A stretch of DNA of 39,365 nt from Sandaracinaceae bacterium (lineage in GTDB: Bacteria > Myxococcota_A > Polyangia > Polyangiales > Sandaracinaceae): the NCBI GenBank assembly GCA_019637095.1, contig JAHBWG010000086.1, positions 1 through 39,365 on the forward strand, read 5' to 3'. A program made the translations under genes and the position numbers. The notes beneath the pieces are model-generated. The model saw nothing but the letters and a program-made list of their open reading frames with translations, was not told the origin of the DNA and made no database searches. Shown here piece after piece: positions 19,719 through 22,222 of the stretch. The stretch's first letter is position 1; each line of letters starts with the position of its first letter.

Positions 19719-20447
19719 CTAGCCGACGAAGGTGGAGATCACCCCGACGACCAGACCGACACCGGAGGCCGCAGCGCCGCCGATGAACGCCAGCTTCGCG
19801 TTCTTCGCGCTCGAGCCGAGCAGCTCGTCGCGCGACTTCGCGGAGAGGAGGAGGCCGAACATCCCCGCCCCCGTCAACACGCCTTGCTCGACCTTGCCGA
19901 GCGCGAAGGCGCGCGGGGTCATGGGGACGATCTTCTCCGTGCACTGGAAGGTGTTCGCCTTGGACATCGGCGGGTTCGCGAAGGCGTACTGGCCGAACAT
20001 GATCGGCTCCCCGCGGCCGAGGGCGCCCTTGAGGTCGGCGAACAGGCCCTCCTTCTTGGTGTCGTCGAAGGTCTTCTGGAGCTCGAGGTCGCCCCCGCCC
20101 GACGCGTCGATCGGGACGCCGCCCGAGCCGTCGTCGACCATGAACGGCGCGGCGTGCTTCTCCTGCACGTAGGTGTGGCTCTTCTTCGCGTCGCCTTCCT
20201 TCCAGGTGCCGACGACCTCGAGCTGGTAGTAGAGGCACGGCGTCCCGGTGACCGGCGAGACGAGCGGCTGCGGGCACTGGACGAGTCCCTCGACGCTGAT
20301 CTTGTCCGCGCCGACCGCGCCGCGCGCGGCGTCGCCGGTCGGGACGAGCGGCGTCTTCGCGATCTTGCCGCCCTTGTACTTGAGGTACCCGCCGACGATG
20401 AGGGCGACGATGCCCGATCCGACGAGAAGTGTTGCGATGGCTCCCAT
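19719..20447 (-). CDS. GIDE-domain (MULAN/MAPL-like) membrane protein
   Basis: A 242-residue protein with a membrane helix at about 4-20, a soluble middle and a second helix at the C-terminus (about 220-241). The middle matches the GIDE (BAM-like) domain: CPQPLVSPVTGTPCLYYQLE, then SHTYVQEKHAAPFMVDDGSG and GDLEL. This is the arrangement of the intermembrane domain of the mitochondrial E3 ligases MULAN/MAPL, but no RING finger follows here, so no ligase activity is implied. The bacterial role is unknown. ATG 20447 has AGGAG six bases upstream, and the gene ends at a strong terminator, so it is probably monocistronic. It is divergent from the second ABC1-type kinase gene. Confidence 0.82.
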   Translation of the reverse strand: MGAIATLLVGSGIVALIVGGYLKYKGGKIAKTPLVPTGDAARGAVGADKISVEGLVQCPQPLVSPVTGTPCLYYQLEVVGTWKEGDAKKSHTYVQEKHAAPFMVDDGSGGVPIDASGGGDLELQKTFDDTKKEGLFADLKGALGRGEPIMFGQYAFANPPMSKANTFQCTEKIVPMTPRAFALGKVEQGVLTGAGMFGLLLSAKSRDELLGSSAKNAKLAFIGGAAASGVGLVVGVISTFVG

Positions 20448-20818
20448 GGTTCGCTCCTGTTGGTGGCTGCGTAGTGATGTCGTCGCGGCGTCGCGCCGCG
20501 TGGTCGACCCGGCTCCTACGCACCCTCGGGACCAGGCCCGAGCGCCCACCGAATCGGCCCCGGTCACGCTCGGCGCCCGCGTGTGTCCCGCCGCGCGGCG
20601 CCTCCGGTCCCACTCGGAAGAGGGGACGATCCTCGTCATCTCGTCATTCTCGTCAGGTGGCTTCGATACGCCGCGAGCAGAATGACGAAATGACTAGGAT
20701 CGTCCCCGCGCGCCCACCGCGCGCCCAACGTTGAGGGAGCAGGGCGGGACGCTCGGGGAACCTCGTTCCCGGATCCTGCGTTGACGGGACGGCCGCGCGG
20801 ACCCAACGTCGAGGCACG
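20448..20818. other. 371-bp divergent intergenic region with inverted repeats
   Basis: No credible gene lies between the GIDE-domain gene and the ABC1-type gene. The region holds the long 86-bp inverted repeat (20622-20707), a smaller hairpin GGGAAC-CTC-GTTCCC (20756-20770) and a direct repeat CCCAACGT(T/C)GAGG at 20724-20736 and 20802-20814. Promoters for both genes must be here, but I see no convincing -10/-35 pair. Confidence 0.7.
20622..20707. repeat. 86-bp element with 29-bp terminal inverted repeats
   Basis: The left arm 20622-20650 begins GGGGACGATCCT and ends TCGTCATTCT; the right arm 20679-20707 is its reverse complement with only two mismatches in 29 positions. A 28-bp loop separates them. 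The left arm also contains direct repeats of CTCGTCAT (20632-20639, 20640-20647, with a partial copy from 20649). There is no T tract at either end. It could be a cruciform or RNA hairpin, or a small MITE/REP-like insertion. Confidence 0.85.
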
Positions 20819-22222
20819 ATGGCCGACCGTGTCCCCTCCTCGCGCTTGGGTCGGCTCGGCCGCCTCGGGTGGCTCTCGCGGCGCAGCGTGCCGCTCGCGA
20901 TCCGGAGGCTGCGCGAGCTCGCGGAGACGCCCGCGCTCGACGAGAAGGCGCGGCAGAAGCACGCGGCGGCGGCCGAGGAGATCCTGGCGACGCTCGGCGA
21001 CATGAAGGGGCTCGCGCTCAAGCTCGGGCAGATGCTCTCGTACATGGACGGCGCGCTGCCGCCCGAGGTGCAGCCCGTCTACCGGGAGGTGCTCGCGAAG
21101 CTGCAGGCGTCGGCGCCGGCGATGCCGTGGGAGGCGGCGCGCGAGGTGCTCGAGACGGAGCTCGGGCCCATCGCGCGCACGTTCGCGGAGCTCGACGAGG
21201 TGCCGTTCGCCGCCGCCTCGATCGGGCAGGTGCACCGCGGCGTGCTCCACGACGGCACGCGCGTCGCGGTGAAGGTGCAGTACCCGGGCATCGAGCAGGC
21301 GATGGGCGCGGACCTCGCGAACCTCGGCGCGATGCGCAAGGTGGCGGCGCCGCTGCTCGCGCTCGCGGGCGGGAGCCCGACCGTGGCGTGGAGCGGCGAG
21401 CTCGTCGGCGAGCTGCGCGCGCGGCTCACCGAAGAGCTCGACTACGAGCACGAGGCGGCGATGCAGCGGCGCTTCGCGACGCTGCTCGAGGGCGACCCCG
21501 AGATCGTCGTGCCGCGCGTGCTCGAGCACGCGTCGAGCCGGCGCGTGCTCACGACCGAGCTCCACGCGGGCCGCACGCTCGCCGAGGTGGCGCGCGACGA
21601 CTCGCAGGAGGAGCGCGACCGCTGGGGCACGGCGCTGACGCGCGCCATCGCGATCCCGCTCTATCAGCACGGCCTGCTGTACGCCGATCCGCACCCGGGC
21701 AACTACCTCTTCCGCGACGACGGCAAGGTGGTGTGGCTCGACTTCGGCTGCTCGAAGGAGCTGCCGGACGCGCGGCGCGCCGACATCCGCCGGTACCTGC
21801 GCGCGGCGATCCGCGCGACGCACACGGACGATCCCGCCGACTGGGCAGAGCTCGACGCGGCGATCCAGCACGCGCTCGCGCTCGACCCGACGAACCCGCT
21901 CGTCTACGGGATGTCGCGCGACTTCCTGCTCTACTGCCTCTCGCCGCTGCTGCGCGATCGGACGTTCGAGTTCACGCCCGAGTTCACGCGCGGCACGTTC
22001 GACCTCGTCGTCGAGGCGAAGAAGAAGACGGTGCTGCGCAAGGGCATCCCGCGCCTCGAGGCGCCGCCGCGGATCCCCGCCGACTACACGTTCCTGAACC
22101 GGCTGCAGTGGGGGTTCTTCAGCGTGCTCACCGCGCTGCGCGCCCGCGTGAACTGGCACCGGCTCCTGCCCGAGGAGATCCGCAGCGCCGTCCCGGGCGC
22201 GGATCTGCGCGCGCACCCCTGA
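20819..22222 (+). CDS. ABC1/COQ8-family atypical kinase (second copy)
   Basis: A 467-residue ABC1-family protein, without an obvious N-terminal membrane helix. Motifs: KxGQ at K68-Q71 (ALKLGQML), AAASIGQVH (131-139), ATP-site lysine K152 (VAVKVQYPG), EELDYEHEA, catalytic YADPHPGN with D290 and N295, and LDFG with D308. It is closer to the COQ8/ADCK3 subtype (KVQYPG, DPHPGN) than the protein at 14711 (KIQRPG, GDVHAGN), so the two are separate paralogues rather than a recent duplication. The expected role is quinone or lipid metabolism support through an ATPase activity. ATG at 20819; no strong ribosome binding site is visible. It is divergent from the GIDE-domain gene. Confidence 0.92.
   Translation: MADRVPSSRLGRLGRLGWLSRRSVPLAIRRLRELAETPALDEKARQKHAAAAEEILATLGDMKGLALKLGQMLSYMDGALPPEVQPVYREVLAKLQASAPAMPWEAAREVLETELGPIARTFAELDEVPFAAASIGQVHRGVLHDGTRVAVKVQYPGIEQAMGADLANLGAMRKVAAPLLALAGGSPTVAWSGELVGELRARLTEELDYEHEAAMQRRFATLLEGDPEIVVPRVLEHASSRRVLTTELHAGRTLAEVARDDSQEERDRWGTALTRAIAIPLYQHGLLYADPHPGNYLFRDDGKVVWLDFGCSKELPDARRADIRRYLRAAIRATHTDDPADWAELDAAIQHALALDPTNPLVYGMSRDFLLYCLSPLLRDRTFEFTPEFTRGTFDLVVEAKKKTVLRKGIPRLEAPPRIPADYTFLNRLQWGFFSVLTALRARVNWHRLLPEEIRSAVPGADLRAHP

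Follow-up and report, generated by a model that had tools for sequence, protein, structure and literature searches.

The locus and its inverted repeat

We analyzed a stretch of 39,365 nucleotides from a Sandaracinaceae bacterium (contig JAHBWG010000086.1 of assembly GCA_019637095.1; hereafter the window), in which a long inverted repeat lies between two divergent genes. The left neighbor, on the minus strand, encodes a GIDE domain (19719-20447, the start at 20447 being inferred from an AGGAG motif), and the right neighbor, on the plus strand, encodes an ABC1 atypical kinase domain (20819-22222). Both genes are outside the element, and the nearest family kinases to the ABC1 gene product are only about 40% identical. 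The arms of the inverted repeat, 20622-20650 and 20679-20707, are 29 nt long and 93% complementary, with two mismatches and 28 nt between them. An initial annotation, made from the letters of the window, had placed a repeat with these arms, mismatches and loop between divergent genes, and had remarked on direct repeats within the left arm and on the lack of a T tract; all of these statements proved correct. The left arm contains the CTCGTCATCTCGTCATT repeat, and neither a T tract nor a terminator-like site was found at 20440-20830. Also, no sigma-70-like promoter site was detected between the two divergent genes, and with 0 sites found, a terminator or promoter was rejected.

The whole element (20622-20707, 86 bp) is a doublet of two half elements arranged tail to tail. 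Its left half (20622-20650, plus strand) is an exact match to the half element found throughout the genome, and its right half (20679-20707, minus strand) has two mismatches relative to the left arm. At its outer end each half carries GGGGACG (20622-20628 on the plus strand and 20701-20707 on the minus strand), a motif also present in the inverted repeats that flank homologous transposase genes. The variable, family-specific part of the left half consists of two tandem 8-nt units, TCGTCATC/TCGTCATT (20633-20648, plus strand), and the corresponding pair in the right half (20681-20696, minus strand) has one base changed in the unit nearest the outer end. The central loop (20651-20678) differs in sequence between copies, and its own folding in the window copy is weak (z -0.7). 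As single-stranded DNA, the window doublet reaches -28.9 kcal/mol, compared with -12.2 ± 2.3 kcal/mol for 200 dinucleotide shuffles (z -7.4), none of which folds as well.

A genome-wide family of half elements

Further copies, for which the initial annotation had proposed a search, were indeed present in the same genome (9.25 Mb in 197 contigs). A 131-base query produced 102 matches, and the 28-nt half element GGGGACGATCCTCGTCATYTCGTCATTC, with at most three mismatches allowed, identified 124 dispersed halves (68 forward and 56 reverse), compared with none for the reversed pattern. The arrangement of the family was then determined from 73 stretches of this genome and the window, with halves counted at up to six mismatches. 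A total of 118 halves fell into 79 groups, comprising singles, doublets and clusters. Among adjacent two-member groups, 16 were tail-to-tail, two head-to-head and 11 direct (seven and four). When indels in the partner were allowed, 31 candidate doublets were obtained, 24 of which were clean (both arms with no more than three changes, total length below 90 bp). The clean doublets span 61-87 bp, with five of 61-64 bp, eight of 70-75 bp, one of 81 bp and ten of 84-87 bp, the window copy measuring 86 bp.

Based on crude gene calls (a GC3 method rather than a gene finder), 69 of the 79 groups are intergenic, whereas coding regions make up 85% of the scanned sequence. For 60 groups both neighbors could be oriented: 32 lie between unidirectional genes, 20 between convergent genes and eight between divergent genes. 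The window copy, with its divergent neighbors, therefore belongs to a minority. No target-site duplication was detected in the 24 clean doublets (mean 0.25 nt, compared with 0.36 nt in shuffled pairings). Of 111 halves, 37 have GA directly before the head (10% for other runs of GGGG) and 13 have TGA (0.5%), these counts excluding the seven copies of an array on contig C121. Such flanks may represent either a target preference or additional sequence of the element.

The array on C121 (L043:5078-5527; G000:C121:150080-150526, where G000 denotes the genome of the window) contains seven halves of the same orientation within 450 bases, separated by gaps of 21-110, beside a CGTCCTCGTC-type simple repeat. 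Halves were also observed within about 130 bases of the ends of contigs C11, C126, C28, C30, C157 and C196 of G000. Therefore, the assembly may break at such places, and copies may be more numerous than counted here.

A transposase gene between two half elements

A gene for a 297-aa protein (G000:C150:7564-8457, minus strand) is bracketed by two halves without any mismatch to the pattern. These halves lie within perfect inverted repeats of 31 nt, and the downstream repeat overlaps the end of the gene. Together with the dispersed halves, this gene bears out the suggestion of the initial annotation that the element could be mobile and of the MITE or REP type. Directly before the GGGG of the repeat is the TGA stop of an upstream 689-aa gene (L026:973-3042), for which no Pfam match was found.

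BLAST of the 297-aa protein in its own genome returned only the protein itself, and a profile search revealed four more distant Y1 proteins in addition to it. Other Y1 transposases of this genome were located at L059, L060, L061 and L062 (contigs C132, C90, C124 and C62 of G000); three are 148-152 aa long and the fourth is longer, and a half element was observed in L061, with none in the other three loci.

Residues H60 and H62 (HUH), Y120 and N124 are invariant in all 13 aligned homologues. The NCBIfam model of REP-associated tyrosine transposases scored 28 bits against the 297-aa protein, below its cut-off of 80; Pfam Y1_Tnp (E 0.27) was also below cut-off, and a PDB sequence search with the single protein gave 0 matches. 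An AlphaFold2 model (pLDDT 86.7) had its best fold match in 4er8 (Foldseek E 8.4e-7; VIA Z 16.0, rmsd 2.9, 159 residues), the structure of a RAYT with a REP hairpin, which we take to be the RAYT of E. coli. Residues 207-295 of the model match DnaA domain IV on DnaA-box DNA (3pvp; Z 12.1, rmsd 1.9, 89 residues), with a second DnaA domain IV match in 1j1v (Z 11.5, rmsd 1.9, 86 residues). In addition, the sequence profile of the family finds DnaA (E 1e-7), and Pfam Bac_DnaA_C gave E 6.7e-6 (26.5 of 31.5 bits) in one homologue and no match in the 297-aa protein. On account of these fold and profile matches, the protein is predicted to be a RAYT-type HUH transposase whose core is fused to a DnaA-domain-IV-like DNA-binding domain.

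Homologue loci and repeat types in other genomes

Flanking inverted repeats containing (G)GGGACG were identified at 22 of 25 homologue loci and were absent from three, one of which lies at a contig end. This set leaves out four weak or partial loci (L072, L074, L079 and L080) as well as weaker profile matches; the four loci were examined separately and showed no such repeats. The sequence following GGGACG differs by family, being, for example, CTCTGCGTCATTGCGTCATTC in G025, ATCCTACCCATCTACCCAAAC in G005/G008 and CGAGGTTGCTTAATTGTCTTACG in G016.

Four repeat types were searched for in 38 genomes with up to three mismatches, and the reversed control gave 0 matches everywhere. The type of the window was found 124 times in its own genome; its 13, 10 and 7 matches in G005, G008 and G025, all with exactly three mismatches, belong to the related types of those genomes. 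The G025 type was found 23 times in G025, with three-mismatch matches in G005 (13), G008 (8) and the genome of the window (2). Nine copies of the G005/G008 type were present in G005 and ten in G008, and 49 copies of the G016 type in G016, with 0 matches to either type in the other genomes of the 38. The four tested repeat types are restricted to genomes in which their cognate transposase is encoded.

Some further repeats were observed in these genomes. Halves of the G005_C122 type, in one orientation and partly about 1 kb apart, occur at G005:C141:15037-23202 and on contigs C27 and C289 of G008, as if in a larger tandem repeat. A repeat family with a unit period of 7, GGGGACGATCCTATTCATTCGTCATTC, is present at four loci of G005 and G008 (L047, L048, L049 and L055); no terminal repeat matching it was found at the transposase genes examined in G005, and it is possibly an orphan family. 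At L074:1317-2250 (G010:C3:33134-34047), four exact copies of TGTTTCACGTGAAACA, the only ones in G010, bracket a gene for a 182-aa Y1 transposase-like protein; this sequence is presumably the parS consensus.

Tandem units inside the half element

The variable part of the half was analyzed in 18 of 22 repeat types, leaving out one near-identical orthologue and the short repeats of G037, G005_C3 and G017. When the sequence after GGGACG was matched against itself, the identity over the 18 families was 0.485 at offset 8 and 0.358 at offset 9, compared with 0.27 in shuffles, and the remaining offsets from 3 to 14 gave 0.21-0.29, close to the shuffles. The summed repeat score was 95, compared with 45.7 ± 4.3 in 2000 shuffles, the maximum of which was 63. 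When the families were assessed one by one, nine of the 18 reached a shuffle p <0.05, which was missed by G016_C30, G003, G008_C4, G025_C439, G074_C22, G047, G128, G074_C36 and G073_C27. With unit borders that were set after seeing the sequence of the window family (the offset profile was set independently), the similarity of first and second units was 0.698 within the same family and 0.408 with other families (permutation p 5e-5); without four CGTC-like relatives, the values were 0.654 and 0.384 (p 5e-5). Because each first unit is far more like the second unit of its own family, the pair has changed in concert. Across the 18 families, the variable portion of the half is a tandem repeat with a period of 8-9 nt and jointly changing copies. 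We consider these concerted units to be a concrete candidate for a recognition code and the part worth following.

It is conceivable, and we suggest it tentatively, that the half is a two-part address, in which the HUH-tyrosine core reads or cuts the constant GGGGACG and an exchangeable tandem pair of 8-9 nt boxes is recognized by the DnaA-domain-IV-like part. The latter would read its boxes as DnaA reads 9-nt boxes and, with the boxes changing together as families diverge, each transposase would own a private repeat population. If true, such an HUH transposase would join single-strand cutting and duplex box recognition. Over 153 pairs, repeat similarity was correlated with domain identity at a Spearman coefficient of 0.11 for the DnaA-like domain and 0.21 for the HUH domain (partial correlations 0.02 and 0.18; Mantel p 0.07 and 0.02, respectively). 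Since the DnaA-like domain is not favored, this domain comparison does not support the two-part address.

Interpretation of the element

About a hundred scattered copies share their ends with a transposase gene, and the element is therefore interpreted as a repeat that is mobile, and not as an RNA gene or a local switch. Very probably, it is a short non-autonomous mobile repeat in which the terminal inverted repeat (TIR) belonging to a RAYT-like Y1/HUH transposase (TIRYT) is present twice, tail to tail; this transposase is encoded elsewhere in the genome and most likely acts in trans. The window copy is an ordinary member of this repeat population, and any effect of it on the two neighboring genes is probably incidental.

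A very stable hairpin in a divergent intergenic region could also act in a shared promoter region, either as a structured RNA that is transcribed or as a regulatory switch that forms a cruciform. Folding of the centre is slightly better than in shuffled sequences (mean z -0.86 in 11 long-loop and -0.48 in 11 short-loop copies), with four of the eleven long-loop copies reaching z of about -2 or lower, which would suit such a function. However, a promoter position is untypical of the family (eight of 60 classifiable groups are divergent), and position 19 is C or T in each arm independently of the other arm. The best Rfam matches were far below gathering scores, and RNAalifold found compensatory changes in 0 of 25 predicted pairs among the ten copies of 84-87 bp, whose low variation makes this weak evidence. 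Accordingly, the structured RNA that the initial annotation had considered, with covariation as one of its tests, gains no support, nothing points to the cruciform switch, and we regard an RNA or switch as very improbable. A MITE mobilized by a classical DDE transposase would explain the inverted repeats at the ends and the high copy number, but it should also show target-site duplications, which are absent from the clean doublets; moreover, the gene with the same ends is of the HUH/Y1 and not the DDE kind, and solo halves and clusters are common. Lacking target duplication, this candidate was rejected and is left with hardly any probability.

Another reading is that the halves are host-domesticated binding sites under selection, with a role in chromosome organization, supercoiling or mRNA 3' ends, and that the DnaA-like protein is a host factor. 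The DnaA-domain-IV-like fold at the C-terminus of the protein would be in line with this, as would the frequent position of copies directly after stop codons (the TGA excess described above). REPs, too, often sit directly behind stop codons. Yet the catalytic residues (HUH and Tyr) are the same in all aligned homologues, and the repeat sequences turn over between genera, which is unexpected for essential host sites. We consider host sites improbable.

For the mobile repeat, a mechanism may be proposed after TnpA_REP, which, in the passages of PMC8266576 on its activity, nicks single-stranded REP DNA with the aid of the REP tag tetranucleotide. By analogy, the 297-aa protein should recognize and nick the halves. 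Acting in trans, it would recognize halves that are exposed as single strands during replication or in a hairpin, and its HUH-tyrosine site would cut at a putative nick adjoining the conserved GGGGACG end. The doublet would then be copied or moved to intergenic sites without duplicating the target; the absence of target duplications fits nicking next to GGGGACG. The more distant Y1 proteins of the same genome could in principle act instead of the 297-aa protein.

Comparison with known systems

Our comparison draws mainly on two publications, the later of which, a survey from 2018, we take to be that of Quentin et al. In the main text of the earlier one (Di Nocera et al. 2013, PMC3733652), TIRYT genes are RAYT-like HUH genes flanked by long TIRs in place of GTAG REPs; some of the TIRs share GGGGWSAS, and some form moderately abundant families in dimers or clusters. 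The pertinent sections of the 2018 survey (PMC6006769) equate most TIRYTs with TnpA_REP subclass 2.1 (RAYT group 1). This second largest subclass is described there as having a long protein with an HUH core and a C-terminal HTH related to Bac_DnaA_C; REP-like repeats were not found near its genes, and the target of the HTH was left open. In the literature searched, which excludes many subscription papers, the term TIRYT occurred in these two papers only, and searches for RAYT and REPIN gave nothing on the present repeat family.

The element belongs to the TIRYT repeats, a known but little-studied kind. In view of the dispersed family, the bracketed gene and the repeats at homologue loci, the window element is assigned to the dimeric TIR elements of TIRYT (RAYT group 1/subclass 2.1). 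The 297-aa gene encodes a Y1 transposase with HUH and the catalytic Tyr, and long terminal inverted repeats without GTAG surround it (31-nt perfect TIR) and 22 of the 25 homologue loci. The protein has a C-terminal HTH related to Bac_DnaA_C according to fold match and profile. As in TIRYT/TIRtron repeats, the TIRs of an HUH gene, led by a GGGG motif, occur throughout the genome singly, as dimers and in clusters. GGGGWSAS, which is typical and not defining, is absent from GGGGACGA, where the seventh base is G instead of A; the motif here is GGGGACG, in contrast to the TIRs of PMC3733652. Nor are tandem 8-9 nt units mentioned for those TIRs in the main text of that paper, in which the term "direct repeat" does not appear.

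CGTC-tagged REPs, which in the main text of PMC3733652 carry CGTC unpaired at the terminus and lack a dedicated transposase, resemble the present element in having CGTC near one end (CGTCCCC here). In our case, however, CGTC lies inside the paired arm, and a dedicated transposase is present. The likeness to REPINs or BIMEs (GTAG REPs, RAYT groups 2 and 3) consists of inverted doublets in one hairpin, a mostly intergenic location and a single cognate transposase. Two inverted units form one hairpin in the 24 clean doublets. In contrast to REPINs, the half is a constant head followed by tandem units and not a tagged palindrome, and neither GTAG nor GTGG occurs on either strand of the half, so that GT[AG]G is missing from the hairpin foot. 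The element works like a REPIN without the GTAG tag and is therefore outside the GTAG REP/REPIN family.

Unlike subclass 2.1 as presented in the pertinent sections of PMC6006769, the genes studied here do have terminal repeats, which are genome-wide in the four tested types. If the two-part address were true, it would identify what the HTH domain of this subclass binds. The subclass-2.1-like gene of this genome has genome-wide cognate terminal repeats with REPIN-like doublets, and three further repeat types behave likewise in other genomes.
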